From: Branchiostoma floridae
Taxonomy: Eukaryota; Chordata; Leptocardii; Amphioxiformes; Branchiostomatidae
DNA: 64,000 bases
Direction of reading: 5' to 3'
Assembly: GCF_000003815.2 (NCBI RefSeq)
Contig: NC_049979.1
Coordinates: 16,302,900 to 16,366,899, forward strand
Below, piece after piece: positions 6,011 through 38,277 of the stretch. Within the stretch, counting starts at the first letter, position 1. The number at the start of each line of letters is the position of its first letter. A model generated the notes under the pieces. It was not told the origin of the DNA. It made no database searches and worked only from the letters and a program-made list of their open reading frames with translations. Position numbers and translations under genes: made by a program.

Positions 6011-9000
6011 ATGTTCAGTAAAAAGTCAGGCCCTTTGCTCTTCGTCATCATTGTCTATTGCCTAGCCCTTTCCGAAAGAACGTCGACTCAAGGAGCGATG
6101 CAATTGTCAGCAAAGATTCCAGAGAATGCTGCCATTGGAGAACAGGTTATCCGCCTTCAAACAACAACACAGGGAGCCAATGAGGAAGTTCTGTGTGATA
6201 TCATTGACGGAAATGTTCAGCGTCGCTTCCGTGTGAATCGTTGTGTGATTGAAGTAGCCCGTCCCTTAGACTTTGCTATAAACGGAAAGTATAATTTGAC
6301 AATGAAAGTTACTGGAGCACTCGAGACCCGTCACGTGGATATACAAATCGAGGACGTGGAAGGATACCCACCTGTTTATAACGACACCTGTGAAATGACC
6401 ATGGCAAGTAAAGACAGGAAGCCAGATCATCCTGTTTTCAATGTGGATGTGACAAGTGAGTTCATGGAAAAAATGGGAGGGATTTCTGTTCATAGGTTTA
6501 ATACCAAAAATGTGCGGAGTCGTAAGCCATATTCATTAACTGTTCAAGGCTACAGCAACACCGACTGTGCCGTTTGGGTAATGGGTGCTGCCAATCATCC
6601 GAAAGATGTGAGAGTCCTGAATGGCTTGTGGATTACAGGAAATTCATGTCTTCGATGTTTTCACCCATGACCCGCAGGAATCCGGAAATGTTTTGGAACT
6701 TGTAATTCTTAACAATGGCGAACGAAGGTGTTCCTTTTCATATGATATGGATTTGAATCACATGTCTCATTTCTGGAGGGGGGAGGAATGTTATGTATTG
6801 TATTGTATCGTATATCATGTAATTGTATTTGAATTTGTTTATTGTAACTGTCGCGTTCTGGCGGCCCTTCTTCGTAGTAAACAACAACAACTCGACGTGC
6901 TCGAACGGGCGGTGGCCCCGTTCGGAGAAGGGTGTTCTAGAACCGCCAGAACGCGACCAGTAATGCGATTCAAGATAAAAGCAGTCTTGTCTTGATCGTC
7001 TTACAAGTGTGACGTTTGTCTTGTGTGTCTCCGTCTTTGGTCCTCCCTCCAACACTGGAGAAAACAGAAGTATACCTTGTTAGGTTCGTTCATATTCCAG
7101 TCTTCAAAAACACAACAATTCGTTTGCGAACTGCCACAAGATGGACTTCCTGTGCGGGTCAGTCTAGGTGACAATGAACTCAATGAAATTCTCTTAAATC
7201 ACTTAGAATTAGAGATCAAGCCTGTCGGATGTCCGCCGAATAAATACGGTCTGACCTGTGACCGGAACTGTACCTGTGAGAACGGTGCCCAGTGCCATGC
7301 TTTGAACGGGGCCTGTAAATGCCCGCCAGGGTGGCAAGGCGTGGTCTGCGACATCCCACATAGTACCGTGGTAATCACTGCGACACCTAGCGACTCCCGA
7401 CACATTTATATTAATGGTTCGTTGACATTACATTGCCTATCTTTTCATGTAGATGTCGAGAAGATGATATGGGCATTTCCCAATGGAACGAAAAAGTGGT
7501 TACGGAAGACTCAAGAAGATCAAATAAAAATCGAAAATCTGCAGTCTCAACATAACGGTACTTACACCTGTACTGTCGTCACGGAAGACGGGGCGGTCAT
7601 TAACACAAGTTATGAGCTTCACGCAGTCGCTTGTCCTCCCGGCAACATGGGTGAATTGTGCGAAGACGTGTGCGACTGTCCACACGGTGTCAGCTGTGAC
7701 CGGTGGTCTGGCTGTGTTTGTCCCTCCGGATGGACAGGAACAGTTTGTCAAACGCCGTGCCCTGTGGACACGTACGGACTGGGTTGTAGAAATGAGTGCC
7801 ATTGCCATAATGGCGCCGTCTGTGATTCTACCGATGGTCGATGTAACTGCACCTATGGCTGGTACGGTACGAACTGTAACAAGCCATGTCCTCCGGGTCT
7901 GTATGGATGGAGATGTCGGCATGTTTGTGGCTGCAAGAACAACGCCATCTGTCACCACGTGGATGGAAGCTGCAAATGCGTGTCGCCCTGGACTGGACGG
8001 TGGTGTGACGTCATACAAACGGACACATTTCCTTTGCTACTTCAGCTTCTTATACCACTTTTACTGTTAGCGCTTCTTGTATCTGTGGCAATATTGATGT
8101 TTTACAAATGGAAGAGGGCTTCTCGGGCGAGACAAGATGAGGATCTAGACGAGACACAGGCTTTACTTGAACTGAGTAGTATGGAAGAGGACTTGGCCCA
8201 GAGTCTGCAGCCGGGCTGGCTCAACCGATGGGAAAGGAGCGCCGATAATCTCACCCTTGATGAACTCATCGGGCTAGGCACGTTCGCACATGTAAGGAAA
8301 GGGCAACTTCGCACTGCTGGCATCGACACCACAGTAGCAGTCAAGTCCGTCCGAACAGAAGACAGATCGTGTTATCGGGCCTTTTGTCGCGAAGCCGCCA
8401 TACTGATAGCCGTGCACGAACAAAGCGGAACCGGTGCTCCTTGTCCTTCCAACATTATCAAATTTTTGGGGGTCATCACAAAGTCCAGACCGAAGTGTAT
8501 TATCTTGGAATATGCTTCGAAGCGGGATCTTTTGACACTTTTAAGGCAGCGCCCTGATCGCAATGGTGGTCTTCCACTGGGCAGTCTTCTACGTAATATG
8601 CCCTCCAGATAGCATGCGCCTTGAAAGAGCTCCGATATCTTCGTATCGCCCACGGTGACGTGGCCGCCAGAAACGTTCTCGTCACCGAACATGACGTTGC
8701 CAAGCTTGCTGATTTCGGTTCAGCCCATGACGTCTATTCGACTACGTATGTGTCATCAGGCAAGAGAGATATAGACGAACTCTTGCCTCTGAAGTGGATG
8801 GCTCTGGAATCCCTGGAATCTCGCGAGTTCACGTGCGAAAGCGACATGTGGTCATTCGGTGTGCTACTGTGGGAGATGGTCACGTACGGAGAGGAGCCCT
8901 ACTATGAGCACAAGATGCACCTTAGCTGCCCTAAGCTAGTAGGGGTACTGAGGCGGGGGATTCGGCTGCAGAAGCCACCCGAATGTCCGAAAAAGCTTTA

Positions 9001-9132
9001 TGTCGCGATGATGTCCTGTTGGCGGGAGGAGCCGTCGACCAGACCTACACCAGAGGAATGGAGCAGAAGCTAACAGAATATCGCCATAAAATAGATCCTC
9101 TATTTGTCGTTGAAAGGGAAACTATGCTTTAG
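6011..9132 (+). pseudogene. Receptor tyrosine kinase copy (cadherin-like, EGF, Ig, EGF x3, TM, kinase), intronless and disrupted
   Basis: The protein begins with a signal peptide (MFSKKSGPLLFVIIVYCLAL) and a cadherin-like segment. Next come one EGF-like repeat (about 7228-7355), an Ig-like domain (about 7370-7620), three Tie-type EGF repeats (7633-8010), a membrane helix (about 8030-8105) and a kinase. The kinase keeps the glycine loop GLGTFAHV, the VAVK lysine (about 8344), DFG (8711-8719) and WMALESL. The catalytic HRD is HGD (8651-8659, HGDVAARN). All domains lie in one block without introns, unusual beside multi-exon neighbours. The frame changes three times: near 6575-6638, near 8597-8612 and near 9055. 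The last change restores a natural C-terminus ending at TAG 9130-9132. An LTR-like insertion (6779-7054) adds an in-frame stop. I read this as a retrocopy or decayed paralogue; a 61-base intron at the first junction or assembly errors are alternatives. Confidence 0.75.
6779..7054 (+). mobile_element. Solo-LTR-like insertion inside the kinase copy
   Basis: The direct repeat CTGGAG flanks the segment at 6773-6778 and 7055-7060. Removing one repeat plus the insert deletes 282 bases (94 codons) and joins the same reading frame on both sides, as expected for an insertion into coding sequence. The insert contains a TG...CA unit (6789-7054, 266 bp). Before it lies a purine run (GGGGAGGAA) that resembles a polypurine tract. 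Inside is a perfect 15-bp inverted repeat (6850-6864 and 6943-6957, GTCGCGTTCTGGCGG), with a smaller CGAACGGG/CCCGTTCG hairpin nested within. This fits the R region of a Ty3-type LTR. No coding sequence for retroelement proteins is present. Confidence 0.65.
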
Positions 9133-10080: not shown

Positions 10081-13000
10081 CATTGGTTCCATAGGAATCC
10101 GATCAAGGCGACTGCGCCTGTATCATTCGCCCTTGGACCAATCTGTACCAACGCACAGACCCAGAAAATATGCAGGTTTGTAATTATATCATACTGTATG
10201 TACAGTAATATTGCGGGGGTGACAGACAGTGGTTACTGTTTGCTCTGTTGCCCCCCTCCCCCTTCCAAGGCGATCAAAACTGATTTGACATGACATGACA
10301 AGCCTAAAACGCTTAATATCTATTCTGAAATTTGTCTGCCTTCCACGCAAGGCTTAATGAACGGCGGACAGCTGTAATAAATTCCTCAAAATGTCACTAA
10401 ACCACGTTGTTCAACGTTGAGATCAAGTGACTTGCGCCGCTATTTACACGCTTTATGTAATTGTAAGTTAACTGTGAAATTTACCCTTCAACTATTGAAA
10501 GTCACCCTTAATACTTTTTTCTCAGTGACTTGCGTATGATCCGTGCACAACTCTTGGAACTCCTGAGTGATCCAAATAAGGATGTTACTGTTGTCAAGAC
10601 AACAACAGACAACTATTTTGCTCTGTTGCAAGGTATGCCCAGCAAATATTATTGTAAATTAATAAAATTCACTGAATACATTTTAGTATTTTCCAGCAGA
10701 AGTTACTTCTCTCAGCTCTGCATAATCCTAGTGACAGTAACATGTTATAAGTTCGATCTTGGTTTGATACGATTGTTGGTTGTGGGTCTGAATTAATTAT
10801 TACCTGGGAATTTTCTTTCATGTAGTTTCAGGGCTTTCTGTTATTTTTGTCCACCCAAATCTTCTATTTATTCTTATTTCCAAATCTTACTCCCAGGGTT
10901 CCTACAGGCCCTAGATGACAACAGTGGTGAGAGCAAGTTGAGGCACTCAGTCAAGTTCAAGTGGTCCAGCACAGTTCTGAGCAATGCTGTTGTGTATGTC
11001 CTCACATTACTTGCCTGTAGTTTGTGCCACTCTTGTCCTGTAAGTAGGCAATGTCATTGCTGTTGCCCAGGATTAGAGAAAACTGTTTCCTGCCCACTTT
11101 TTGTAAAGACTATTGATGAATGATGAAAAGACCTAACGTTATCTTAGTTAAATTCTGTAAGCTAAGCTATGGTCTGGTCCTCATTTGATTCAATTGTGAA
11201 TCTCCGTCGCACAAAAAAGATTTTTATTGTGCTGTGATGTAAGTTAACCTTAATAGTTAATCAAAGGTGATTCATGTACTAGTACTAGTATTGACATGAT
11301 TGCATTTATCAAATTGTCATAACTTAAAAACTGTTGTTCACCGGTGTGTAGTACCCAGGCAGATGCCTTGTTTGAGTTGGCCTCCATGGCAATGAACATT
11401 GGACTGTGGTACACGAAACATGCAGCCAAGATAGCTGCCAGCGATGAGTAAGTATTGCAGATATTGCTCTCAGTCCCTCATATACAAGTCCAGAATATCC
11501 AGCCATTTTATGTGTTGACAAACTGTACATAGGTGGGCTCCTGCCATTGTATGTTGAAGCCTGCAGGTCTTAAACTTGTTATAGTAACCATAATAACATG
11601 AAGATACCCTGAACATGGAACTTAGTAGATCTTGATTCAAGTATAGTTTGACAATGACATGACACTTAAACAGTTAGTGTGTTACATCTTTTTACAGAGT
11701 ATCTATGGATGAGGCAAAAGAGGTGCACAAATGTCTAAGGACAGCAGCTGGAATCTTTAAGAATGTAAAGGTAGGATATTTGTGTCTTAAAGATAGGATA
11801 TAAGGTCTTATTAGTTGTATGATCAGAACCTTTCTAATTATCAATCTCCCCTTGGTGTTCTATCAAGTGATGTGATCAGGACAGTCATGTTGCATTGTCT
11901 CTATCAGTATCAAGCAACTACAAATACAGTTGGTAGATAAAATGCAGATAGTTTGCTGTGTGAGTGAGGAAGATTTCATATACATGTATATGTAAAGATG
12001 TTTGTAATTCTATAGGAACAAGTCATTGGAAGACTTTTGGAGACAGCAGAGAAGGGCACAGACCTGGATCCGAAGGTGGTAGAAGCCTATTTTCAACAGT
12101 CTACAGCAGAGGCACAGGAAGGTGAGCACATAGAATACAGTAAACTTACTTGGAAGAACAAAAAATTGAAAATGAAACAAACTGGTTCAGAGTCCAACAT
12201 GACCGCAGATATCTGCAATTTCGTTGAAAAACTACATTTGCTTTTAATATCATCATGAAGAGTAAAAATACTATTATCATTGATATTATGTGTGATAGCA
12301 AAATAGTAGTTCTTTCCTGATGTTGTCATGCAGTGGCCCTGGCACGAGCTGTGGAGATGAAGCACAGTGCTGGTCTCATCTCATCACTGGCTTACGAAAC
12401 AGCACAACTCTTCATCACTGCAGGTATGCTTCACATGTTTGACACTTCTTCTTCTTCATACTGTCACTAGTGTCACTGCAAGAAACAAACCAGACTTTTT
12501 TTAGCCACAACTATTTTTGCAGTTGATTTTGTGGTATTAATTTAAGCACTGCATTGTGTGAGCAAGTACACTCTTGGCCAAAATATCAGAAGTTGAAGTT
12601 ATCACTCAGCATAGCTATTTTGGGTTCCTTTATTACCTTTGCCAGAATGGCTAAGGTTATGTTTTAGGCTTGTGAGTCTGTCTGTCTGTGTGTTAACAGC
12701 ATAACTCGAGAAACCTTGGATGGATCCCGATGATATTTGGTAGGTGGGTAGGGGTCGGGAAAACGAAGGTCAAGTTCGATAATGGGCCCCCTAGCGGCTT
12801 GCTAAGGTACTGCAGCAGAACCTCAATTTTGTATATCTCGTGTTCTGGACATGCCGTGGTTATGATTTTTTAGTGGTAGATAGCCCTTGGGGACGAGAGT
12901 AAGTACTATAAGTTTAGACCCCCTAGCGGCTTGTTTGAAACTGCAGTCGCCGATTTCCTTTCAAACTTTGGACGAGAATAACTCGAGAACGTGTTGATGA

Positions 13001-15259
13001 ATCATCACGATTTTTGGTATGTAGATAGCCCAAGTAACAATGTACATTATGAAATACTAATTATGCAAATCATGAACTAATTTACATAATTAATGAGGAA
13101 AGTTTATAAATCCACTGCATTTCATGATAGGACTTTCAAACTTGTCACATATATAGATGAGAAAGAGAGAAATATCAATGCATGTTAATTATGCAAATGA
13201 CGGTCTCATTTGCATAATTAATGAGAAAATATAAACGCGTTGACGGATCGTCATGATTTTTGGTATGTAGATAGCCAAAGGGAAGACTTACATGATGGCA
13301 TTCTAATTATGCAAATCGACGGTTAATTTGCATAATTAATGAGGAAAATGTGTAAATCCACTGCATTGCATTATAGGACTTTCAAACTTGTCACATATGT
13401 AGCTGAAAAAAACAGAAATATCAATTCATATTAATTATGCAGATGATGATCTCATTTGCATAATCAGTAAAAAATATGAACGTGTTGACGGATCATCATG
13501 ATTTTTGGTATGTAGATAGCCTAAGTAAAACCTTACATAATGAGATACTAGTTATGCAAATTAACAGCTAATTTTTAAATTAACAGTTCAGTTCAGCTTA
13601 AGTGATGCTTGATACAATTAAATAGTATGTAAATAGGGATCTAATTTGTATAAGCAATGGCAAAATGTTATGAACCAACTCCAGGCATATGAAATAAAAT
13701 ATAATGAGTAACACATTTATGTCTACAGACATCATTCTACATAACAAACCTGGTTTATTTGGCAAAGGTATGTGTTCGTGGAACTCTAGTTGCATCTCCT
13801 TTTTATATTGACAATTGTAACTCATTATATTTGACCTGTTGCCAACAGGAGGTTCACTAGACCAACTTGATGCAGCAAGCGTAGGAAAGTGGCAGAAATA
13901 TCTACAACTGAAGGGTGTATTCTACTTGGCTCATGTAAGTCTAGCATTCTGTTAATGTACAAACACAAGTTGCTAACAGTTTCCGTTGAGTTTCTTTCCT
14001 GTTGTAATCCAACTAACATTCAGATGAGGAAGAGATATGCATTACAATTCAGAATTACAATTATTTTGGAAGTACATAATGGGTTCTTAATTACCTATAA
14101 TTATGAATTTTCCAGGCACACTGTTACAATGGAGATGCACTGTTGGCAAAGGACAAATGTGGAGAGGCAATCAGAGCCTTACAGGAGAGTGAAAAGTGTG
14201 AGTAGACCCTTGGTCACATGTATGTAGTAGCTTGGTGTTACAAATAGTTAGACTAAAGGCTGACGTAGATGTGTATGTAGTTGTATTATCACTCAAGTTA
14301 AGGTTATCGTTGAGGAATTGTCTGTTTTGAAACTACAGCCATCAGAGTACTCATGGGCTGAATGTTCATAAGACATTGTTTACCTACAATGTATCCTTTT
14401 CATTGCCACCTGTAGTGTTTGAAAAAGCTGAAAGCTTGTGCAAGGAGTATGCATCTTCCAAGGGCCCAGGAACATCTGCCAGACCAGACCAGCACATCTT
14501 TTTCATTAGACTGGGGAAACAGGTGAAAGTTACTCTGGACAAGTGCACAAGGGAGAATGGCTTCATGTAAGTAATCCTGCTTTGACAAGGTCTAGACACA
14601 TTTATAAAAATACAGTTTATCCTGTTCCACTATACTATTAGTTACTATATGTCACTCTGTGCCTTGCTGAAGCTAGCATTTTTACAAAATGTAGCATCTC
14701 TCCTTTGGACTGAAGGGACTGGACAGTACCTTATTGGCAGGAAATACAATGATTGGGAACTTTTTAAAAAGTTAAAAGTAGAATCTAAAAGAAAAGACAG
14801 ATGCATACCTGACGTCACCTGGATGTTGTTGCAAACAACTCAACGTGTTCCCTTTGTTTTGTAGATACTTCCAGAAGGTACCTCCTGAGGTCCCAGAGCT
14901 GGAAAAGAAGGCCACCTATGGTCTGGCCAACCCTGAGGAGTTCCAGCTACCTCCACCCAACCCACTGTGGAGTGCTGACATCTACAATTCATTTGACCTG
15001 TCAAAGGCACCTGCTGCACAAAAGGTGAGACAGTAGTCACAGTATTCATGATTGTTGCACATAATGGCAATTTCTCTTTCTTGACTGTAGTATAGAAACA
15101 TACGCACCTTGTTTTTGTCTGATGGTATTTGGAAACTAAAGACTATTTGATGCTATTTTACAGGGTGAGAAAGAACCGGAAGTCAAACCTGTGAAGGAAT
15201 CAGACATTTATCAGTCGACCAAGGAACCTGGAACCTTCAGTGGATGTGTGATCTCATAA
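10075..15259 (+). CDS. BROX: BRO1-domain protein BROX
   Basis: Twelve exons join in phase to 414 aa (human BROX is about 411): 10075-10175, 10526-10632, 10897-10993, 11352-11447, 11698-11770, 12016-12121, 12334-12423, 13849-13934, 14116-14197, 14416-14566, 14865-15024 and 15164-15259. The start [18 protein letters not shown] and internal blocks such as [25 protein letters not shown] and [13 protein letters not shown] [15 protein letters not shown] align along the human protein. BROX is a single BRO1 domain that binds the ESCRT-III subunit CHMP4 and acts at membranes, including nuclear-envelope repair. The last four residues CVIS form a CaaX farnesylation box (human CYIS), so membrane anchoring is probably conserved. 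Intron 7 is long and filled with repeats. A poly(A) signal at 16783 predicts a roughly 1.5-kb 3' UTR. No disruption was seen. Confidence 0.96.
12640..13580. repeat. Interspersed repeat plus about 245-bp tandem units rich in ATGCAAAT octamers (BROX intron 7)
   Basis: The motif CATGATTTTTGGTATGTAGA or a near copy recurs at about 12991, 13237 and 13482, giving a period of 245-246 bases with the third copy truncated. Each unit holds octamer-type ATTATGCAAAT and its reverse complement ATTTGCATAAT, at least seven in all. The preceding 12640-12960 contains related TTTGGTAGGTGGGTAG and CCCCCTAGCGGC sequence, so the tandem block probably grew out of an interspersed repeat. No coding sequence is present. 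Confidence 0.7.
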
Positions 15260-17067: not shown

Positions 17068-18001
17068 TACTGTAAATGCAGAAATTTTCGCAGTGGTTTT
17101 GTGGTAGCGGTTTTGGCATTACCACCGCGGACATTTTTCCCGATATAGCCGCATCCGCCGATATCGGCGGGGCCGATATCGGGGCGCATCTAAACACATT
17201 TTGCAAATGGTAGCGCGGAACACCCGCGGCGCGGAACATTCGTGACCCCTTTTGACCTCTGGTGACACATCCCGCGGATTTCAAAATGGCGGGAATGCCG
17301 GTAGCTTTTCCACTCGTTATCAATCAGGTAATGTTCTTTCTGTATCTCATGCGCGTGATCTTAAACATGAGACGCCATGCAAGGGTAGGGCGCAGGAGGC
17401 GATTGAGATACAGGGAGAGACGACAGCGGCCGGCTAGAGTGAACGCAGCGTTCTTTCTCGCTGCCCTGATTGTGGCGGAGGGTGGAGAGCCTGTACACCG
17501 GGGTGTACCAAGGAATCCCGCGTCCTTTTGGGATCTCCTCCGACGACCATACACTTATAAGAAAGGCGGTTTCTGCATGGCCCCATGTGCAACGGGAGCG
17601 CCCAGCTTTTCCCTCCGCCATCTTGCTCTCCCGCGCTGTTCCCGCATTATATGCTAATGAGCTTCGCGAATTTGCGGAGCATCTACACGCGCGCGGAACA
17701 TGTCGGGGACCCCTGCTAAGGTATCGGTAAGGTATCGTTAGATGGCTTACGAATGGTCCGGACCATTCGGGAGAAATTTTCCCGATATAGTAGTGGCGAT
17801 ATAGTAGTTGCATCTAGACGCTGAAAAAAAGCTGTCGGCGAGAGGTAGTAGGCTCGCCGATATCGGGAAAAACTGTGTGTAGATCGCGCCTAAACAGTGC
17901 ATCACTGCATGGTACTACTGCAAACTTAAAACCAACGTGAATAGTCCTTTTTCCCGCTGCGGCAAAATTAAATCCCCACGAACTTATATGCATTTAAAGT
18001 A
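17068..18001 (+). mobile_element. About 930-bp inverted-repeat DNA transposon with a basic open frame
   Basis: The left end TACTGTAAATGCA (17068-17080) is matched, with one mismatch, by the reverse complement of TGCATTTAAAGTA at the right end (17989-18001). The next bases inside both ends resemble the inner ends of the smaller element at 21780-21965. Inside lie palindromic CCGATATCGG blocks and an open frame (17262-17657, 131 codons) with an Arg-rich segment and no motif I can assign. A PIF/Harbinger-like N-terminal fragment is possible but unproven. The TRIM at 18003 has landed exactly at its right end. Confidence 0.5.
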
Positions 18002-18002
18002 A

Positions 18003-18183
18003 TGTAAGAAGTCAGAGGGGCGAGTAGAACAGAAATAAACAATATATACAAATATCCTGACCGACCCGGGAATCGAACCCGGGTCCTCCAGATCACAAGA
18101 CCAGTAGCCTAAATGACTGAGCCAAAAGCCTGACAGGCGTTTGGCATGGCCAGTTAGCACTACTTAAACCCCCCACTGTTACA
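18003..18183 (-). repeat. 3' LTR of the TRIM element
   Basis: 181 bp with TG...CA ends on either strand (TGTAA.../...TTACA). It lies next to the polypurine tract and is identical to the second copy at 18293. Confidence 0.88.
18061..18126 (-). other. tRNA-like segment with A and B boxes inside the TRIM 3' LTR
   Basis: On the minus strand it contains TTTGGCTCAGTCATTTAGG (A-box-like), CTGGTCTTGTGATCTGG (anticodon-arm-like, loop CTTGTGA) and a T-arm with a perfect B box GGTTCGATTCC (18079-18069) between CCCGG/CCGGG stems. The pattern is closest to tRNA-Thr(UGU). It lacks a proper acceptor stem, so it is not a functional tRNA gene, but it could work as a Pol III promoter. Confidence 0.7.
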
Positions 18184-18292
18184 CTACTCCCCCTCTTCTT
18201 CTCAAGATTCGTCCTCGAATCTCCAAGTTCGAGCACCCTGTGGGCAGGCACATCACCGGCCTGTTATCCACCAGGGCCACGTTGGGCGCCAA

Positions 18293-18473
18293 TGTAAGAA
18301 GTCAGAGGGGCGAGTAGAACAGAAATAAACAATATATACAAATATCCTGACCGACCCGGGAATCGAACCCGGGTCCTCCAGATCACAAGACCAGTAGCCT
18401 AAATGACTGAGCCAAAAGCCTGACAGGCGTTTGGCATGGCCAGTTAGCACTACTTAAACCCCCCACTGTTACA
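18293..18473 (-). repeat. 5' LTR of the TRIM element
   Basis: 181 bp, identical to the copy at 18003. On the element strand it is followed after one base by the primer-binding site. Confidence 0.88.
18351..18416 (-). other. tRNA-like segment inside the TRIM 5' LTR
   Basis: An exact second copy of the tRNA-like segment at 18061-18126. Its position in the 5' LTR is where a Pol III promoter could drive transcription of the element. Confidence 0.7.
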
Positions 18474-18514
18474 GTAACCCAATGCCAAGTCGTCACAATG
18501 TCCTACATTGGTCT

Positions 18515-18676
18515 CAGTCAAATTGACCTATATATCAACAAACCTGCTCTATATTTAGCCTATTGTAATTCATTTGCAGTAATGACTGGCAACAACAGTC
18601 AAATTGACCTATATATCAACAAACCTGCTCTATATTTAGCCTATTGTAATTCATTTGCAGTAATGACTGGCAACAA
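18515..18676. repeat. Perfect 81-bp tandem duplication
   Basis: The unit starting CAGTCAAATTGACCTATATA occupies 18515-18595 and is repeated at 18596-18676 without change. It could be a very recent duplication or an assembly artefact; the N gap starts 340 bases downstream. Confidence 0.85.
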
Positions 18677-19012: not shown

Positions 19013-19815
19013 NNNNNNNNNNNNNNNNNNNNNNNNNNNNNNNNNNNNNNNNNNNNNNNNNNNNNNNNNNNNNNNNNNNNNNNNNNNNNNNNNNNNNNNN
19101 NNNNNNNNNNNNNNNNNNNNNNNNNNNNNNNNNNNNNNNNNNNNNNNNNNNNNNNNNNNNNNNNNNNNNNNNNNNNNNNNNNNNNNNNNNNNNNNNNNNN
19201 NNNNNNNNNNNNNNNNNNNNNNNNNNNNNNNNNNNNNNNNNNNNNNNNNNNNNNNNNNNNNNNNNNNNNNNNNNNNNNNNNNNNNNNNNNNNNNNNNNNN
19301 NNNNNNNNNNNNNNNNNNNNNNNNNNNNNNNNNNNNNNNNNNNNNNNNNNNNNNNNNNNNNNNNNNNNNNNNNNNNNNNNNNNNNNNNNNNNNNNNNNNN
19401 NNNNNNNNNNNNNNNNNNNNNNNNNNNNNNNNNNNNNNNNNNNNNNNNNNNNNNNNNNNNNNNNNNNNNNNNNNNNNNNNNNNNNNNNNNNNNNNNNNNN
19501 NNNNNNNNNNNNNNNNNNNNNNNNNNNNNNNNNNNNNNNNNNNNNNNNNNNNNNNNNNNNNNNNNNNNNNNNNNNNNNNNNNNNNNNNNNNNNNNNNNNN
19601 NNNNNNNNNNNNNNNNNNNNNNNNNNNNNNNNNNNNNNNNNNNNNNNNNNNNNNNNNNNNNNNNNNNNNNNNNNNNNNNNNNNNNNNNNNNNNNNNNNNN
19701 NNNNNNNNNNNNNNNNNNNNNNNNNNNNNNNNNNNNNNNNNNNNNNNNNNNNNNNNNNNNNNNNNNNNNNNNNNNNNNNNNNNNNNNNNNNNNNNNNNNN
19801 NNNNNNNNNNNNNNN
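19013..19815. other. Assembly gap (N run)
   Basis: 803 undetermined bases. Open frames spanning the run are artefacts. A 5' exon or promoter of the fibrinogen-related gene could be hidden here. Confidence 0.99.
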
Positions 19816-20114: not shown

Positions 20115-23100
20115 ATGGCCTCCCTGGTTCGCAGTGCTGTGGTCCTGGCTCTGTTGTTGAGTGGTGTGACTGCTCAAGATGGAGAGGAGGGTGCTATTTT
20201 ACTGCCAGAGGATCCATACTATGACAATATTGAGGAGCCATATGTTGATCCAGTAGGGGAATATCCTCCCGGTGAGGACTACCCTCCCTATGATGACTAC
20301 AGTGATGTAGTGGTGACTGCACCTCCCTACCAGCCCACCCCTCCACCCAGACGTCCAGCCCCTCGTCCAGATCCTCAACCACCTGCACAGGTCCCTGCAC
20401 CTCCACGTGGCTACGACTACGGTTCAGAGTCGGACTATTATGACGGCTACAGCTATGAGCGGCAGATTGAAGAGGACCAAAGAAGAGAAAGGCTGTACCA
20501 AATGGAGTTCCAGCTGAGAGAGGCCTTGGCAGAACTCAGACTCCTGAAGTCTCAACACTCGACAACCAGGCTGGTGGTACAAAACATTAACACCAAGCTG
20601 TTCTCTGGTAAATATATAATCTTCATATAGGATTAGAAATTATGGGAACAGAACATCTATTAGTCAGCTGTTTTGCCAAAGTTACATCAATTGGTTACTT
20701 TGAGGCATACTGGGTCAACATTGGAAAGCTGGGAGTTGTGCCTATTTCCAGCATCCAGCATCATGTGCACATTACAATGACATTAACACCTAGACCTCTG
20801 TCATGATCACATGACAATCACATTAACACCTATTCTAGACATTAACACCTGGATGCCAGACTGTTTCCAGGGCCTACAAAGGCCAGCTGACTCTGCACGA
20901 TTGACAGAATATCCAGGTGGGAAGGTATTACTGTATCCTAATGACAGCCTTTCCTGAGAAAATTATACTGTATCTTAATGAGCCTTTCCTGAGAAAATTA
21001 TACTGTATCTTAATGAGCCTTTCCTGAGAAAATTATACTGTATCTTAATTAGTCTTTCCTGAGAAAATTATACTGTATCTTAATGAGTCTTTCCTGAGAA
21101 AATTATACTGTATCTTAATGAGCCTTTCCTGAGAAAATTATACTGTATCTTAATTAGCCTTTCCTGAGAAAATTATACTGTGTCTTAATTAGTCTTTCCT
21201 GAGAAAATTATACTGTATCTTAATTAGCCTTTCCTGAGAAAATTATACTGTATTTTAAGTTTCAAAAGGATTGATCGTAATGATCAATTGTTGGTAGATT
21301 TGCAGTTTTTTCACAAATCTTGGCTCAGTGGTATCCCAGACTGAACAGCTCACTCCCAGATAGGTGACCAGGCTAGTAGACTAATGCACCCACAACTCTA
21401 TGCTCCAGTTTTCTCTTGCATGGTCATGATATTGACTTATGATATAAAGAAAAAGGTAACATTCACATGTGTTGAATATTTTTTCTACTCTTCAAGATAT
21501 ACTTCCGGGCATAAATGAAAAAATGAATAACTTTGGGAGAAGGTCAGACAAGAGTGTTACAGACATTGCAAGGTAAGTACATGTATTTTCTTTCGGTCAT
21601 TGTCATATCAGTTACCATTCAAGGATGATTGTTCGGCACTGGCTTTGATTCATTCAAAATTGGCTGATTCATTCAAAATTGGCTGATGCAGTTATAAGTG
21701 GTTAATTCTCTTCTTTTTGTAATGCTACCATGCAAAGCAATTCTAAAATTGGATACATTTCCAGCTAATCTCTGCTTAAGTACTGTAAATGCATTTTAAG
21801 TTCGCAGGGATTTAATTTCGCATTTAACGGGAAAGTGTTCATACAGTAGTGCCATACGTCACATACTGTAATGGAAAAATGTTTGCGGTGGTTTTAAGTT
21901 TGCAAGACTCCCTCGCGAAAACTGCGAACATAAAACCACCACAAACATTTCTGCATTTACAGTACCTTTAAATGTCCTTTCGAAGATACAACCAGCGGCT
22001 AACAGAGATAGAACAAGGCATGGAGGAGAACAAACTGCTTGGAGCTACTGTCACATCCATGGAGCAGAAAACTAACAGGCTGGACAACATGATCAACGAA
22101 CATGACAACAAGCTGCTGAGGATGGAGAACACCTACCGGGGCACCCTGGCTCGCCTGGAGACTAGGCTGTCACAGGTGGAGAGTAACACAGGTGACCTAT
22201 GCTATTCACAAACACAATTTGGATTAAAAGCCACTGAAATGTATGTATACTCAGTCACTATGTAGTAGTATGTATGTCACATTATGTGTTAATTGGCTAG
22301 CAGATCACAGGCAACATATCACCACAGCAGATCTGCACTGTATTTGCTTTACCACAACTTTTATGAAATGTGTACATGTAATCTACAAATGTTTTACACC
22401 AGGATAGCCAGATAAATTATGAAGTGGCTAAACTGGAATGTGTGCTTAAGTACAAGTTCATGCATGCACAGGGACCACATCAGCAGTATGGTTTTATATT
22501 ACTCACACTAAATAAACAGACCATGTAACAACTGCAGGGGTCTAGTCCCTCCTGTGGCCTTGGTAATGTGTGAAGTTCAACACAGTGGCCTACATTTTAA
22601 TCAGTTCCATGTGTTCCCTCTGCACCCAGCCGACCAAGTGTACAACATGGAGGAGTCAGTGCTGGGGCTGGAGAAGGAGGTGAAGAAGCTGGCTGCCCGT
22701 CCTGAGAGGGAGGACCAGGCAACCAGGATAGCTCAGGTAACGTCCTTGCTTCTGCATGTAACTTTAGGAGAAGTAAAGAATAAGTGATAAGCTGATAGCA
22801 GTTCCTAACGAGATCTGACCTATAACTAGACGACTTTGTTCATATTGCAGGTTGGTAAGGTAAAATGAATCATAAAGGTGGACTGTACCATCACAGTTTG
22901 TGCAGGGAGATTCAAGAAATGCAACAACTCTGTGATAAACAATATCAAATGGTGCCTGTGATGTCTGTGTAAAGATCTGGCAAGGTACATGTTGCACTCA
23001 TGTCTTATTTGTTTGATTGTACAGCTGAAAAGACAGCTGTTTGACACAAACAACAAAGCCACCTACTTGGAGAGGCAAATCAGCAGCAATGACAGAGACA

Positions 23101-26906: not shown

Positions 26907-29900
26907 TCACTGTAGTTTTGAAGTGGAACAGTATAGCTGAAACACTGCTTTGCTGAGCGCTGGTCCAAGATTCCTGCTAACACAAGAGAACCCTTGTAAA
27001 AAACTGCAGTCTTGTGTTTGGAATAGATGAAAAATAGCTAGACAAAACAACTAGTCACAGGAAGACCCCTAGCAGATATGTCACATACCTTTTTGTGGGT
27101 CCATACTTAAGAGGTGCCAGCATCTTCTCTTTCTCAGCAGCTGAGCCACAGCTGTAGTAGGACTGCAGAAGGCTGAGGAAAAATAATCAGATAACAAATG
27201 ATGAAATGTATCATACGAGACAAGGAAACACCATTCATTATAAACACTGTATGATCAGTCACTAGATATGGTGCAACCTAGCATATACGTACGCCACAGG
27301 AGTAGGGTATGTGCTGACAACTGCTGCCACCTTCTCCTTGGACATGCCATGGAACTGCATCAGCTGCTTGGCAAACATCTCCTTCACAGAGATCACCTGG
27401 TAAACAATGTTTGACATTAAGCTGATGTGATTCTGATGTGACAAAAAAAAGCGCTACAAATAGAGCAATACCAACCTGCTGTGGCCACAACTTTGAGCTG
27501 TACCACTTTACTTAGAGCTTTGCCAAAAGCACAGTAGAATGCTATGGTGAGATAGGCTTCTGTCTTGGCATTCATACAATCTTTAAGTCTTTTCCTTGGG
27601 TTTTGAAAATGTACAAGTCTTATATCCTTAAAGATAAGGCCCGAACTTCGAGAGTACAAACCATTTCTGTTAACTTATATCAAGTAACTTGAATTGTGTG
27701 GTGGTGGCAGTGACAACCCTGTTAGAGCCAACTTAGAGTGTTACTTTATTTAGTCTTGCCAGGGTAATAATAAACAGGGCATTGGTTTTGTGAAGCTTGT
27801 CATGAAACATTTCAAGTTGCAACAACCATTTCTAAACAATTGCATACCTTGTTCTTTACTGATGTCTCATTGAATTCTGGAAAAGTCAGCAGTTTGATCA
27901 CACTGGCATCAAGGTTCAGGTCTGAGGACTGATCCTGTAAATCGTCTCGGCTGTAGCCTTCAAGGGTCTTCCCCTTCAGTCAGGAAATAACAGTTAAAAT
28001 GAAATAAATGAAGATAATATCTAAAGACAATTCCATCTCTACAACTGGATAAGTTTCAGAGATTGCTTCCAGACGTTTCGAGTGACATCCATCAATCTTC
28101 TTCGGTGTCACTTGAAATGTCTAGAAGTAATATCTGAATCTTATCGAGTTGTAGAGATTGAATTGTCCTTAAATTTTGTTCTGGACTTTTGACCTTCGTA
28201 ATTGTAGTTGAAGACAAGGTCTAATTTGAAAGGAATTCAACATGTGCTTATTACATAGAAAGTGTATTGACAACTTACAGCATAGTGGCTGTGCAGGTAA
28301 TTAGTCATCACTGTGAGATAGGTGACTGACTCCTTCATGTCTGCTGTCCTCTTCACAAAGAAACCATCATTCACCTGAAACAATCACAGGAACTGATACA
28401 TGGGTCGTCCTGATGAAAGATCTTTGTTTTTAAGCCAGGTTGACAAACCATGAATGATACAAAACAAGGACATCAAGTAGTCACTTGTGTATGTGGACAT
28501 GGGTTTTCAACGTCTAAATCAAAAACATAAAATTCCTTTTGATAATGCTCTGTTGCTGACTTGCCATTCCTTTCAGCTACCTAATACTCTATGACGCTGT
28601 TTCTGAAGTATTTAACATTATACACCAATGACTATATAAACAAACCTGAGTGTTAACTATTGCCTGTTGTAGAGTAGCTTCAGGAAGACAGAAGTGTGCT
28701 GCAGATGAGCCAAAGTCTTCCACCAGGTAGATGGGTTTTCGCAGTCCGCTCATCTTCAGTCGGAACTGCAGAGCAACAACAAATGGAAAACTGACATGAT
28801 ACATTTTGCACTGTTGCTCAATTGTGCATGTAATTCACGGGTCTGCTTAACATATTTGAGGAGAGGTCAAAGTTGACATGATTAGTTTTGTCTTTACTTC
28901 TCACCTTTTGCTCTTTGAATCGGCTACCCTTGACACTACTCGCAAGATCATCCATTCTCTTCCGCTCCACCACATAGTCCAGGACCAGCTCTCTGGGCAG
29001 GGGTGGATGGAGTTGACCTGTGTTGACGCCACAGAAAAGAATTCCAACCATTTCCAGAATGATTCCACTCACACATTGTAAAAACTTCAGAAAGTTCACT
29101 GCAAACCCCAAATTTCTTACCTGGCAGAGGTTTGACATTCTCCCTCGCCACCCAGAGGAAGTCTCCCACGTGCAGATTCCTCACGTCACATCTCACCCGG
29201 TTCTTCTGCAGCTCTGGGACCAGGTTATCCTTCCTGCTACCTGCAGCACTGTGGAGACAAACAACTTGTGAGGGTGAGATCTGTACACTTTGTCTGTTGT
29301 CAGTCAGAGTAACTGTTTTCTGAAATGATAACTACAGTCATCTAACTAAGAGGAGGGAGACAATACAGTTATACTTAGCAGGATTTTAAAGGAAGCAGTA
29401 GTCTGCTATTTCTGTACATAGACAGGTTTGTATGTATCAGTGTGAACAAGGTAGTGCAATATATGACATTACATGCAATACATGACCCCAAGAACTGCTT
29501 ACCCTCCTGTGGTCTCCTTAGTGTCCACACACAACACCACCTCAAATTCACCTGCAAGTACCAAAGTATAAATGTTACACCATTATGATATAACAGAAAT
29601 ATTGAAGGAAGATGAAAACGATATGCCTGATGACAAGGCTTCACTGACCTGGTGAGAGGGTGAACAGGGGCTGCCTAGGTTTCCTGTCATCTTTAGATCT
29701 ACTTGTGATACTTCCTTGTGAATCTGTGTACAAATATAGCGACAAGGCCATTTAAATGTGACATCCCTGATCTACGACAACTTAGTGGTAGGGATTCTAT
29801 CAAGCTTCAAATGAACAATCAAATCAACCATAATATTTGGTCTTTGTTCATCTGGCAGTTTCCTATGTGCACAACAGCCAATTTTACCATATAAATCTGT

Positions 29901-32900
29901 CCTGCAGAAAAATTACTGGTGCATTTAGACTAATTTTCAGAGTTGTTCAAAACTGAGCCTCACCATCAGTTTCCATCTCAGACACAACAGCATCTCTAGC
30001 AGCTTGCCCAACATCTCTCCTTAGGCTGGGACTAACATCCATAGCTGGCAAAGATGCCACATCTATATAACTCTCTGCCCTGTCAAGTAAAAGTCAGTCA
30101 TGGTCAGAGTAGCTACCATCCGTGTAATTAAAATGTGTTCTCAAGTTACTGTCAATTTTGAAATGTTAGAAGATTTATTTTCGGGTGACCTCTCCACTGC
30201 AGAATCATGACATCATAAATTTGCATTTCCATCATAATTTGCATTACTACTGTACTACTTAACTTTTTCATTGCAAAAGGTGTCAAGAAAATCAGTTCCC
30301 GCAAAAAGAAATTAATTTCTGGTATATGCCTGATACCATTCTCAGTCTGGAACGAATGATCCTATATATACTACCTTTCGTTGGGCAGTTCCATAATACT
30401 TCATCACTACAGATGAGATAGGTGACTGACATGCAAAGTACCTGCCAGCATTAAGCCCAGCTGTTAGTGCAGAATTCCCAGGTCCTGTCAGGGTAAAGGT
30501 CATGTCCTCACTGTCATCCTGTGGGCTGGAACCACTCACTCCCTGCTCACCAATCAGCTCTAACTTATGGGCTAGCTCACTTCCTGTGTCTGTGATGTAA
30601 TATCTGGGTGACAGAAATTACAAGGAATTGATTAAAAGTTAACTTTTCAACTGTAAATATGGTACACGCACATGGCCTTGGACTCATTTTATCACATGAT
30701 GAATAATTTTATTAATATTACACCTAAAAAACCACACTTTCTGAATAGGAAAATGAAGTACTTGTAATGATTACACCAAACAGAGAACTTTTGTTTTGCA
30801 TTTTGTACCTATACAATAAAGTTTACATAAAATAAAGATACAATGCTGAGTACATACTTGGCAGGGTTGCTATCCTTGATGACCAGTCCCTTCTTTACAA
30901 GTCCACCCATAGAAGACCATGCTGTATAGTGGCTGCCTGGGTCTGGCTGAAGAATGACAACCAATTAATGAGATAGCTAGTACAACACTGTTTGTTTTTT
31001 GTACCAAAGAAATGCTGCAGCATGGATGTCCCATGCATATGATGTATGCATCGTCAATACTAAGACTAAGCAAATCAGCAAAGATTTTCTGTAACTTACA
31101 AACAGAAAACGCCATGTACTTACCAGGGTAAATGACTTGTCAGACAGAGGTTGGGCCTCCCTCTGCAGCTCTGCCCTCCCCATGAACCCTCTGCTGTTGG
31201 GATTCTGTAGTGTCAGAACAAACATGTCCATAGTTAACCTTCAGGCTTTTCAGCTGTATGGTCATCCTTCAATTGTTGACAAAAATTATGTATCACTACC
31301 ATTATATAACATACCACTGACCAATATAGGAACCCTGCCTTGGCAGGCAGCAACAATCTCCTCCTCACCTGCATGTTCCTATAGAGAGTCACCAGAAGCG
31401 CATATGGCCCAGACCTGAAGGCTGGCACATACTCCTTTGCGGCAACAGCTTTCTTTCTCTTCTTCTGTGAACAAAAATAGATACTCAAACATTGCTTACA
31501 AAATATACGGAAATGTGTAGATAGGAAGATGCAAATAGCATGGACATGAATTATTAGTAGAATGCAGGAGAAAATTCCGTTTTATTCTAAGAGTGCATTT
31601 GAAGTATAATAGATAAAATCACTTGTCATTGTAAGAAAGCTCTGTCTTTAAAAGTAAACTGAAGCAAAAAGAAATTCTTGCTATTTTATCAATCTAAGGC
31701 CAAACTGATTTGATTATCTGGAAACTCCAAAAGTGAGGGGAGCATGCAAATAAAAAAAATATTTGGAAAATTAATTTTCTTTATTTAAACGGTCAAAAAT
31801 CGATGTGCCCATGGATGTCATCAACATAATCAAATCAACATGACATTATATAAAGTCCTTACACCATCATACTAGGTATCCATCTAATTTGCAGTACTTA
31901 CTGGTCTTGGTTCTCCACTGGAACCTTGGCTGTTGTCATTACCACCAGGGGGAGGGGGAACAGACAGGGAACCCGCTATTATTCCTGTGTTAGTCCTGCT
32001 AGTGCTGGGAAGGTGAGTGTCTACAACTTCTGGCAAAGGGCCTGAGGAAATTTTGACAGAAAATTGCGAAGTTAATTTCATAATAACTATGGCATGTCGA
32101 ATATCAAGAGTTGAGGCCAATTAGATATACCAAATGAAGAAATCACGAAAGAAAGCTCATATGCAGCAGTGGGCAATAGACAAGGACACTTTTCAAATGA
32201 ATTCTTAACATACCATGCTCCTGGATGTGCTTGGCAAGCTTGTCATCCAACATTTTGCAAATTTTGTCACCTGAAAAATATTGCACAACTTAATTATATG
32301 CAAAGAAGATCCATGAGGGTAATCTCCCAGTTTCTGATCTCTTCACCTAGAGAATACCTTCAATGGCCTAAAGGTACACATAGGATTTGTAGTTTTCTTG
32401 GTGTATCTTTGAATGCTGTGTGAGACTATCAAATCATTATGATCTAATTTGAGCCCATGAGTGTTACCAGTTAACACAATGAGAGTAAGAGGTGAGTAGA
32501 AACAGTCTCCTGGCACCCAGTATTCAAACCTGGGCCGCCTGATTACAAACCAAAATGCGCTAAACCATTACCCTGTAACAGTGATAAACCATAACCCTGT
32601 AACAGTCAGGTTCAAGCATTGCCTACCGTCCTTGCCAAACAATTCTGAGCTTTTGTGGCGACATCAGTAGCGTGCTTGGTTTGAAACCATTACCCTGTAA
32701 CAGTCGGGTTCAAGCATTGCCTACCGTCCTTGCCAAACAATTCTGAGCTTTTGTGGCGACTCGGTAGCGTGCTTGGTTTTGGGAGCTTGGCTGCCCGGGT
32801 CCGGTGCAATACACACATGTGTAGGTCGCGGGTTCGAATCCCGGGAGCGAGCTTGGGGTAAAAACTGTTCTACCCACCTCTAGTGTTTCACTGGTACCCA

Positions 32901-33833
32901 CACTGGCCCTGTGGTTAACAGGCTGGAGATGTGTCTGCCCATAGGACATAGGCTGGAGATGTGTCTGCCCATATTGAACTCAGAGATTCGAGGACGAATC
33001 TTGAAAAGAAAAGGGGGAATAGTGTACTGTAACACTAACAGTGGGGTTCAAGCACCGCCTACCGTCCTTGCCAAAGGGCTCTAAGCTTTTGAGGCGATAT
33101 CGGCAGCCGCGAGCGTGCTTGGTTTTGGGAGCTTGGCTGCCCGGGTCCAGCGCGATAGGTTGTGGGTTCGAATCCCGGGAGCGAGCTTGGGGTAAAAACT
33201 GTTCTACTTGCCTCTAGTGTTTCACCCCAAAAGGGTCAGACCCATTTGGCATGGTCAGTTTGGCGGCATTTCAACCCCACCGTTATGGCTACACTAGTAG
33301 CAACTTCATTGTTGATCACTCCAGTGAAGGTTGTAGACTGCTAGAGCCTTACCAACGAAATCTAAGATCTTTGCCTCCTTGCCAGACTGCAATGGTAACG
33401 GATACTTCTTCAGAGACTTGATTGCCTGTACAAAAGCAGTGGGGGTCAAAGCAATAATGATTCCCATCTGTTCTGTACTCTCTCTAGACACAGAAAACAA
33501 ATATCTATATATTAAATGACAAGGTGCATGGGTAGGAGACATGACAGAGGATGCAATAAACACTGAAAAAAATGCGATGCAACTTTCCAGGGCAACTTTC
33601 ACTGTTTCAGTGAAAACTGAAAGCGAATGAAAAAGTTTTTGAAAACAAAATCATGACACAACCGGGTTTACCTTCAGAAACGTGAACTGCAGCTTGGTAC
33701 GTCCTTTTGCCTCAGCATCATCTGCCCACTCAGTAAGCCACTGTAAGAACAGAGGGTTAGGGATTGGGTCTACCATCTTTTTCCTGCCATACTGAGTGTT
33801 GTGACTCTTTATGTTGTTCATTTTGGCCGCCAT
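26907..33833 (-). CDS. MUS81: Crossover junction endonuclease MUS81
   Basis: Nineteen exons join in phase to 645 aa: 33672-33833, 33353-33425, 32214-32270, 31902-32041, 31369-31464, 31124-31204, 30858-30946, 30442-30603, 29964-30079, 29649-29723, 29503-29551, 29121-29248, 28905-29017, 28646-28765, 28279-28374, 27848-27973, 27293-27396, 27089-27172 and 26907-26973. MUS81 is the catalytic subunit that, with EME1/EME2, cuts branched DNA such as stalled forks and recombination intermediates. Visible parts are an N-terminal helix-hairpin-helix ([11 protein letters not shown] to about residue 97), a winged-helix region (about 155-265), the XPF-type nuclease (about 350-520) and a C-terminal helix-hairpin-helix with [12 protein letters not shown]. 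Nuclease residues are intact: D360 and E363 in VDTKE, and ERKRMDD at 427-433. It is longer than human (551 aa), mainly in low-complexity linkers. The start ATG lies in ATGGCGGCC, a YY1-like context. Confidence 0.95.
28026..28166. mobile_element. MITE copy A (MUS81 intron 15)
   Basis: An inverted repeat of about 60 bases per arm. The left arm reads ATCTCTACAACTGGATAAG and the right arm CTTATCGAGTTGTAGAGAT, meeting around GTGACATCCATCAATC. A second copy of the same family is at 50988-51143. Confidence 0.6.
32480..33293 (-). mobile_element. Old TRIM-family LTR relic split by a younger TRIM (MUS81 intron 2)
   Basis: The left part (32480-32573) and right part (33225-33293) together resemble the 181-bp LTR at 18003: AGAGGTGAGTAGAAACAG matches its start, and GGCATGGTCAGTTTGGCGG with GTTATGGCTACA matches its end. 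The left part holds a degraded minus-strand tRNA-like segment with GGTTTGAATAC where the B box should be. The inserted element (32574-33224) interrupts that tRNA-like segment between ATTACCC and CCCCAAAAG. Confidence 0.6.
32574..33224 (+). mobile_element. Second TRIM element with a different tRNA-like LTR (MUS81 intron 2)
   Basis: LTR-like copies lie at 32696-32890 and 33028-33224. Both begin TGTAACA, share GGGTTCAAGCA and CTACCGTCCTTGCCAA, and end CTCTAGTGTTTCA. The 137-base interior keeps the same order as the element at 18003: a primer-site-like TGGTACCCACACTGG, a shared block (TTAACAGGCTGGAGATGTG), the palindrome GATTCGAGGACGAATC (32985-33000) and a polypurine tract (AAAAGAAAAGGGGGAATAG, near 33004-33022). 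Partial extra copies of the LTR start occur at 32574 and 32598. Both LTRs carry a B box GGTTCGAATCC (32831-32841 and 33165-33175) in a GC-rich T-arm. LTR divergence suggests an older insertion than the identical-LTR copy. Confidence 0.75.
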
Positions 33834-34357: not shown

Positions 34358-34597
34358 ATTGATATCTAATGTTAACGATAGTTTACCTTTATCCGTAGGG
34401 TAACCTTTATCCATTCTTTTTAAGAACAATGTATTTAGAGATATCAAGTCGACAGAAATGGTTTTAAACTGCAATATTTTGAAAATAGTACAATTTAAAA
34501 GTACCGTCCATCGACTTGATATCCCTAGATACCCTGTTTAGTAACACAACGGATATAGGTTACCCCGCGGATAATGGTGAACTAACGTTATATCAAT
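34358..34597. mobile_element. MITE copy 1, upstream of Pknox
   Basis: The inverted ends include AGTTTACCTTTATCC on the left and the reverse complement of GGATAATGGTGAACT on the right. Nested inside are GATATCAAGTCGA/TCGACTTGATATC arms. It is the same family as 38054-38277. Confidence 0.65.
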
Positions 34598-35884: not shown

Positions 35885-38053
35885 ATAAACCACCTGAGAT
35901 CCCTTCCAGGATAAACTGTAGCCTCCTCCGTCAGCCTCTCAGTGGGTGTTGGCGGAAGTTGTTGGGGTGGGCATTCACCATTTTCATCACATCGTGGCTG
36001 GGTTCTGCACAGCGAAGGTTCTTATGCCGGGAAAGGAACCTATGCCAGGAAGCTTGTTGGCTGCCCACAGGAGTGTGGCCATAGTTTGGGCTCCAGATTT
36101 CTCGGCTATCACTACATCTAATGATAATGTTTTTCATGTCTGAGTACTAAAAGCTCTAGCATCAAGTGCAACCACACAATTCTTATATATCCTTATGTCA
36201 GACAGCCATGTCCACACCAATGCCATGGGGGTTATAACGTTATAGCTAAGGAAGTTTTTGAACTTCTAGATTTAGTTTGTGACACTCTTTCCAAAGCATG
36301 GTAAGGAAGGTGCTTCAGGTTTACATGTAGGTCTATATTCATAACTGAGCATATCACTCAGTCACAAACAGCAAGTCCCTGCCTCCACGTACTGCCTCCA
36401 AGATGCCTCTGACTGTCTGAGTCTGAGATGCCTCTGCACTGTGTTGTCATGGGAATTGGTAATAACAGCTGCAGTGTTTTCAAAGCTAAGACGTAACAAC
36501 AAACAGAATACACCCTATCTCTAAAGTCATCCCTTTTTACATACATAGGAGAAACTGAATCGTATTTGTAATACTAGTGGACTTGGACAACATGGACTTG
36601 AAGTTGAAAAGTACATTGAATTTCATAACTTGATGAGTAAACTCCATTATTTAAAAGTTAAGTCAGTTTGCAACCTGACTGTATAATGACTTCAGATGGA
36701 AATTAACAAATAGGAAAGTTACATGTGGATTCTAGTTTCTACCAGACTGACTATGCTGCCTATTATATAGGGAGAATAATTTACCAGGGGCAGTTTTGCT
36801 ACCAGAGGAGTTGGCCAGCTGTACTGGAAACATTAACCTTAAAAGCGTGGACTGGCTCCCCTGGCCAATTTCCCATAATATTGCTGAATTCTAAGATCCT
36901 CGTACCCTGTAGGAAGGCCTGGTGGAAGCTATGTGGATTCAGTTTTGGCACAAATTGTAGGCATCTGAAAAGAACATTATCCAGACATGCACGTTTGTAG
37001 ACCAGACCAATACAACGGAAGCCATTTCAGTCAGAACAGATTCTAAACAAGGACCAATGTGACAGTGTCACTCTTTTATTGACCAAACTGCCAATTTCGA
37101 TGCCCAGCTGTACCCGGCAGGAAATTTTTGAGATTGCAGAAGAAAAAAAAGAACCTTCATTTGTCAAGTTAGAAGGATAGAGACTTTACATATCATGTTG
37201 CAGACTGCAGAGGTATGATTTCATACAAATTCTGTCTTTCCATAACTTTCAATCTGTCTTTGAGGCTACATGTATGAAAGTTTTTTTTTGCAAGACATAT
37301 GCTCAGAACATACACTTGGATTTATAAAGACATCTAATCTAGTTCATGATTCCTTGATATTGAATGGCGTAGAAGAACTCAGTGGCGTGCATGGTTTTGC
37401 GCACATTAAAACGTAATTTAAAAGATTTCAATTGACAAAAATGTCTACACACATATTCCTCAGTTCACCCAAGGAGGTTAAAAAAAGGCTTGGTTCACCT
37501 CACCCACCCTCATTTAACCAGACACATATTGGTCTAGACCATCCTGGGAGTTCCATGACCTGACATTGCTTCATTCTGAATGATGCATATCATTTCTGGT
37601 AACTGTACCTGTAAATATGCTCTTGAAAATATTTGCAGAAGATGTAGGACAGTAGGAGCAAGGATATTGAAATAACCAAGGCCTGCATAGAGGTGAGGAA
37701 GAGATTGTAGGGTAGCAAGCACATTGTATATGGTGACCTAGAGCAAGATTGATCTGCAGTATAGAGACAAGACATGCATACCAGCAGGAACATAAAGTGA
37801 TTCTGTGTCTGGTGGAATTTAAGTACTAGAAACTAAAAAGTGATAGAAACCGGAAACTGGAACATAATCACGTTGTCTTATTCACCCGTCTATTTCTGTG
37901 AAACTATAATGAAGGTTAACTATAAGAGCACTGTCAGTTCACTTGATAAAAATATGATCAGCTAAATGCACCAATATATTGGACAATTGCAATGGCACGC
38001 CGCACGCTGGAAATAATGGGGTCTATTAAATGGGAAAGTTGCAGTGTACAATC

Positions 38054-38277
38054 TAATGCTAGTTCACCTTTATCCATTGGAAAACCTATATAGTATATCT
38101 GCTTCTTTTTAAAACAGGGTATTCAGTGATATGAAGTCGATGGTCGGTGGTTAAAATAAAAATACTGCACATTTGCAGTTTGAAACCACTGTCCGTCGCG
38201 ACTTGATATCACTGAATACCCTGTTTTTTAAAGAAACGGATATAGGTTGCCCCGCGGATAAAGGTGAACTGGCATTA
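38054..38277. mobile_element. MITE copy 2, 130 bp before the Pknox start codon
   Basis: The ends TAATGCTAGTTCACCTTTAT and ATAAAGGTGAACTGGCATTA are inverted copies with one mismatch. Inner arms share AACAGGGTATTCAGTGATAT. It belongs to the same family as 34358-34597. Confidence 0.75.

Follow-up and report, generated by a model that had tools for sequence, protein, structure and literature searches.

Helenus elements are TRIMs with tRNA-derived sequences in their LTRs that are described from fungi, animals and one plant, a lycophyte, and range in length from 311 to 1263 bp (Kojima 2024, PMC10886601). Animal Helenus elements have 4-bp target duplications and Gypsy-like primer sites, most Helenus families possess an A box with TRGCY and YGG and a B box with GGTTC, and Thr-type families are reported from bivalves and fungi (PMC10886601). 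In the same paper Helenus and Cassandra are grouped as TRIMp3. Pol III transcripts are reported for Cassandra, whose RNA is described as starting and ending inside the LTRs with a short repeat of 18 bp, and the Pol III function of Helenus is called unproven (PMC10886601). Table 1 of that paper lists no cephalochordate, and its main text makes no mention of lancelet, amphioxus or Branchiostoma. Apart from that paper, the matches listed from open-access titles and abstract openings include no element of this sort in lancelet and none called Helenus.

Here we describe a 471-bp LTR element at 18003-18473 of a 64-kb stretch of DNA from the cephalochordate Branchiostoma floridae, the whole of which was analysed and is referred to as the window. 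The sense strand of the element is the minus strand, and the element is very probably a Helenus-type TRIM.

Structure of the element and its relatives in the window

The element is made up of the following parts.

17999-18002: target site duplication GTAA, left copy (from the sequence)
18003-18183, minus strand: 3' LTR, 181 bp (by identity with the 5' LTR)
18184-18292, minus strand: internal region of 109 bp, without an apparent gene
18184-18201, minus strand: polypurine tract GAAGAAGAGGGGGAGTAG, directly before the 3' LTR
18202-18219, minus strand: TTCGAGGACGAATCTTGA, which reads FEDES*, 18 of 18 bases common to a second relative (32987-33004)
18277-18291, minus strand: primer binding site TGGCGCCCAACGTGG, one base past the 5' LTR (exact match)
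18293-18473, minus strand: 5' LTR, 181 bp (by identity with the 3' LTR)
18474-18477: target site duplication GTAA, right copy (from the sequence)

The two LTRs, which start with TGTAA and end with TTACA, are identical at 181 of 181 bases, and given this identity the insertion is probably recent. As in TRIMs, the element is shorter than 1000 bp, has paired LTRs and is without a coding region, with a primer site after the 5' LTR and a polypurine tract before the 3' LTR. The identical 181-bp LTRs, the 4-bp target duplication (GTAA at 17999-18002 and 18474-18477), the primer-binding site, the polypurine tract and the 109 internal bases without genes (18184-18292) had all been claimed in an earlier note on this DNA, and all hold, the primer site as an exact TGGCGCCCAACGTGG at 18291-18277 and the polypurine tract at 18201-18184, both on the minus strand, an orientation that the note does not give.

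TGGCGCCCAACGTGG, which we take to be the complement of the 3' end of a tRNA-Lys, a tRNA-Lys-type primer site, has a single exact occurrence in the 64-kb window. With up to three mismatches it has two matches in the window versus 0.49 expected from shuffles, and 11 of 100 shuffles reach at least two. The weight is consequently on the exact match adjoining the LTR.

The window contains three related elements. Blast of the element at 18003-18473 against the window returns matching pieces in 32817-33091, and alignment of the surrounding sequence reveals the other two.

~32478 to ~32573, minus strand: third LTR, 3' half, with a degenerate B box GGTTTGAATAC at 32520-32530
32696-33224, plus strand: second, older relative (by alignment, ends set by eye)
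~32696-32890, ~32891-33022 and ~33023-33224, plus strand: 5' LTR, internal region and 3' LTR of the second relative
32831-32841, plus strand: B box GGTTCGAATCC in the 5' LTR of the second relative
32987-33004, plus strand: FEDES* 18-mer of the second relative, followed by its polypurine tract (33005-33022)
33165-33175, plus strand: B box GGTTCGAATCC in the 3' LTR of the second relative
~33225 to ~33293, minus strand: third LTR, 5' half

The two LTRs of the second relative are identical at 162 of 183 aligned bases (gaps aside; 80.7% over 202 columns), and LTRs of the first element and the second relative agree at 116 of 160 aligned bases (about 72%). The second relative has a polypurine tract similar to that of the first element, a primer-site-like TGGTACCCACACTGG, in which 5 of 15 bases are unlike those in the TGGCGCCCAACGTGG of the first element, and flanks, ACCC and CCCC, that agree at three of four bases. 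Its 5' end is approximate, because its start is overlaid by 24- and 98-bp tandem duplications. These duplications (32561-32779) join the flank of the third LTR to the LTR start of the second relative and probably arose after the nested insertion. The third LTR matches the LTR of the first element at 113 of 150 aligned bases. It appears to be a solo LTR from a third lineage, into which the second relative is inserted.

One frame of the internal region of the first element reads RFEDES* right before the polypurine tract. At up to three mismatches, TTCGAGGACGAATCTTGA has only two matches in the window, with 0.01 expected, and these lie in the first element and the second relative. From its reading, the 18-mer may be what is left of the terminus of a Gypsy pol gene. 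When short motifs typical of Gypsy elements are sought in all six frames of the window, six rows result, namely the two FEDES tails and four stray short hits, and no partner element. A viral contig collection gives no match to a 25-base pattern around the 18-mer and none to the 18-mer itself. The single 20-mer match in a genome contig collection, in a bacterial MAG (L001), is taken as chance.

Near the element, a perfect 81-bp tandem duplication (18515-18676) begins 37 bases past its right GTAA, and a gap of 803 Ns lies at 19013-19815. Elsewhere in the window, the reading frames at 6011-9073 come from a gene that resembles receptor tyrosine kinases, has EGF and Ig-like parts and belongs to a large lancelet family. 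Over 98% of its length, the ORF at 7023-8609 is 100% identical to a Branchiostoma floridae MEGF11-like protein, and its next seven matches are all lancelet proteins at 59-64% (among the best 80 of 8000 candidates scored). A minisatellite with 43-bp units (61413-62757) is open in several frames, so its long reading frames are probably spurious. Further tandem repeats are found at 20929-21258 (35-bp unit), 57249-57794 (15 bp) and 12988-13561 (246 bp). Two dispersed, MITE-like pairs, 34373-34593 with 38051-38270 and 28016-28207 with 50989-51191, each match in both orientations and hence have inverted repeats within.

tRNA-like sequences and candidate transcription signals in the LTRs

Each LTR of the first element contains a B box, an A-box-like stretch and a TTTT.

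18069-18079, minus strand: B box GGTTCGATTCC in the 3' LTR, exact, LTR 105-115
18107-18124, minus strand: A-box-like stretch in the 3' LTR
18124-18127, minus strand: TTTT in the 3' LTR, candidate Pol III terminator, LTR 57-60
18359-18369, minus strand: B box GGTTCGATTCC in the 5' LTR, exact, LTR 105-115
18397-18414, minus strand: A-box-like TGGCTCAGTCATTTAGGC in the 5' LTR, LTR 60-77, usual GG absent
18414-18417, minus strand: TTTT, 5' LTR copy

The pattern GGTTCRANTCC has four exact matches on both strands of the 64 kb, with 0.16 expected and none of 100 shuffles reaching four, and all four belong to LTRs of the first element and the second relative, the two elements with paired LTRs. The fifth LTR copy, that of the third lineage, carries the B box with two changes. 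The A-box-like TGGCTCAGTCATTTAGG begins at LTR 60, which places the A and B boxes 45 nt apart; the corresponding distance in the third LTR is 44 nt, counting one copy of the target duplication. The A-to-B spacing of tRNA genes is close to 45 nt. The A box of the first element has a good beginning, TGGCTCAGT, then is without the usual GG, with two mismatches to the A-box consensus TRGCTCARTNGG, and that of the second relative is poor, with at least three mismatches at best. The B box and A-box-like sequence that the earlier note had read in each LTR are therefore present, the former exact and the latter partly degenerate. The loop between the boxes has CTTGTGA, from which tRNA numbering would give the anticodon TGT (Thr), and the source of the stretch was perhaps a tRNA-Thr(UGU)-like sequence.

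ARAGORN with default settings finds no tRNA. With relaxed settings it gives one hit on the LTR, Ser(act), and a hit in none of 400 shuffles; its mitochondrial mode calls Thr(tgt), with some hit in 5 of 400 shuffles. The same relaxed and mitochondrial settings find nothing in the three LTRs of the relatives, and 274 overlapping calls of the intron mode are disregarded. The covariance-model check that the earlier note had proposed for the LTR does return a match to the Rfam tRNA model, in the 3' LTR copy, which at 18.3 bits (E 0.59) falls short of the gathering score of 29. For the identical 5' LTR copy the listed hit is a sub-threshold piece of tmRNA, 18 bases that surround the B box (12.3 bits, E 0.0093), and the whole window has no Rfam match at gathering thresholds. 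We attribute a tRNA-Sec match of 18.3 bits (E 1) in the second relative to chance similarity at its B box. The predicted fold of the tRNA-like stretch is stabler than those of shuffles (z -2.85; 3 of 200 shuffles equal it) and forms no cloverleaf. Given the non-cloverleaf fold and the lack of a default ARAGORN hit, we reject a functional tRNA. The tRNA likeness of the stretch is weak.

CTTTTG is found in all five LTR copies, at a similar place in each, and is a possible termination site for Pol III. The element has one TTTT per 290 nt; shuffles of a stretch of this length have a mean of 1.37, and 58% of 2000 shuffles have one or none. Scarcity of other TTTT, being ordinary in shuffles, is no evidence for a terminator, and it is consequently position and conservation alone that favour one. 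The TTTT in the 5' LTR coincides with the presumed start or follows it closely and might stop the RNA too early, and in the second relative and the third LTR an extra TTTT separates CTTTTG from the B box. Neither AATAAA nor ATTAAA occurs on the sense strand of the element. TATATA is found at LTR 136 of the first element and is absent from both relatives.

Proposed replication and alternative explanations

We propose that the tRNA-derived LTR stretch may function as a type 2 Pol III promoter, from which an RNA would begin close to the A box of the 5' LTR. It would continue across the remaining LTR, primer site, internal region and polypurine tract and end at the TTTT in the 3' LTR, beside its starting position. 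Because the end would adjoin the starting position, a short repeat would be common to both RNA ends, comparable to the 18 bp described for Cassandra. The proteins of a Gypsy element would then copy the RNA from a tRNA-Lys-type primer and integrate the product with a 4-bp duplication. The LTRs, the duplication, the primer-site match, the polypurine tract, the B box, the spacing and the relatives are read directly from the DNA. We infer the tRNA source, the use of Pol III, the start and stop points, the Gypsy partner and the identity of the primer. Taken as a whole, the chain of a Helenus-type TRIM, a Pol III transcript and copying by Gypsy proteins is reasonably probable.

This chain is favoured by the structure of the element, by the confinement of the window's exact B boxes to the LTRs of paired elements, by the A-to-B distances of 45 nt and, in the third LTR, 44 nt, by a B box that is exact in four of five copies, and by a paired-LTR relative whose internal region has the 18-mer in common and whose polypurine tract is similar. 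It is also favoured by the presence of CTTTTG in five of five copies, by the lack of AATAAA and ATTAAA, by the absence of TATATA from the two relatives and by the existence of a published class, Helenus, of equal architecture. The sub-threshold Rfam scores, the A box without GG, the non-cloverleaf fold and the failure of ARAGORN in three of three LTRs of the relatives disfavour it, as do the 5' LTR copy of the TTTT, with its risk of an early stop, the extra TTTT in the second relative and third LTR, the poor A box and 5 of 15 primer-site differences of the second relative, and the negative result for a partner element in the window.

A possible but rather unlikely alternative is that a TRIM of the same build is driven by Pol II, its LTR having taken up the head of a tRNA-SINE whose promoter no longer works. 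The weak tRNA scores, the broken A box, the extra TTTT of the relatives and the TATATA at LTR 136 are all consistent with such a history, and insertion of a SINE into an LTR is proposed as the origin of Helenus (Kojima 2024, PMC10886601). However, two lineages have an exact B box in LTRs that agree at only about 72% of aligned bases (116/160), the two relatives are without TATATA, and the sense strand has no AATAAA or ATTAAA. It is very unlikely that an ordinary TRIM resembles a tRNA here by chance: although the Rfam score is under threshold, the mitochondrial mode of ARAGORN also hits 5 of 400 shuffles and none of the three LTRs of the relatives gives an ARAGORN hit, chance would have to account for four exact B boxes versus 0.16 expected, each of them in an LTR of one or other of two related elements, for near-tRNA spacing in two lineages and for a relaxed ARAGORN hit matched by 0 of 400 shuffles. 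An assembly duplication, or a tandem duplication of a tRNA-SINE, in place of an LTR element is scarcely credible, since the identity of the copies and the perfect 81-bp tandem duplication nearby (18515-18676) are opposed by the TG..CA ends, the GTAA duplication, the correctly placed primer site and polypurine tract, and a diverged relative with paired LTRs.

Returning to the Pol III-transcribed, Gypsy-copied TRIM, we raise a more speculative and doubtful extension, in which the conserved CTTTTG at the A box would set both ends of the RNA, as a minimal strand-transfer repeat, and the pol tail with the polypurine tract would mark a specific partner. If true, RNA ends set by one motif, together with a partner mark, would account for the use of the LTR replication route by an RNA made by Pol III.

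Comparison with known elements

Like the lancelet element, tRNA-derived SINEs have A and B boxes of tRNA origin, but they are not known to have LTRs, a primer site or a short duplication of fixed length. biv-TRIM of bivalves is similarly an animal TRIM, with repeats of 202-218 bp and a short internal region; unlike the lancelet element, it is described with no clear primer site, and its description as consulted makes no mention of a tRNA-like stretch in the LTRs (PMC6934838). Ajax, from nemerteans, is likewise an animal TRIM whose LTR includes a promoter sequence of Pol III type, but this sequence is 5S-derived, the target duplication is 5 bp and the primer is tRNA-Leu (PMC10886601). Cassandra shares with the lancelet element the build of a TRIM with a Pol III promoter sequence in its LTRs and differs in carrying 5S rRNA instead of tRNA and in being found in plants. 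No 5S family is among the Rfam hits listed for the window.

The reading in the earlier note of a probably recent TRIM with a tRNA-like LTR stretch stands, whereas the suggestion that a tRNA-carrying animal counterpart of Cassandra would be new is not supported, because Helenus is published. On this evidence, the lancelet element would be a new member of that known class, which extends tRNA-carrying TRIMs to lancelet, an invertebrate chordate, with one copy that looks young. If active, it would offer an animal system for testing a Pol III template RNA and its start and stop points. B-box hits in lancelet genomes may, moreover, be LTRs of retrotransposons and not tRNA genes.

Helenus, as described, and the lancelet element are both TRIMs with A- and B-box tRNA-like LTRs, a 4-bp duplication, a primer site and a polypurine tract. 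Helenus has several families per genome and tRNA-Lys among its primers (PMC10886601), to which the three related elements in the window and the putative tRNA-Lys-type primer site would correspond. At 471 bp the lancelet element falls inside the published Helenus range of 311-1263 bp, and GTAA on both sides gives it the 4-bp duplication of animal Helenus. Its tRNA-derived LTR sequence is of a weak kind, with an exact B box, a partial A box and near-tRNA spacing; compared with the published box wording, TGGCT and GGTTC are present and the A box has no GG in the usual position. The candidate pol end in the internal region is a feature that we describe here for the lancelet element alone.
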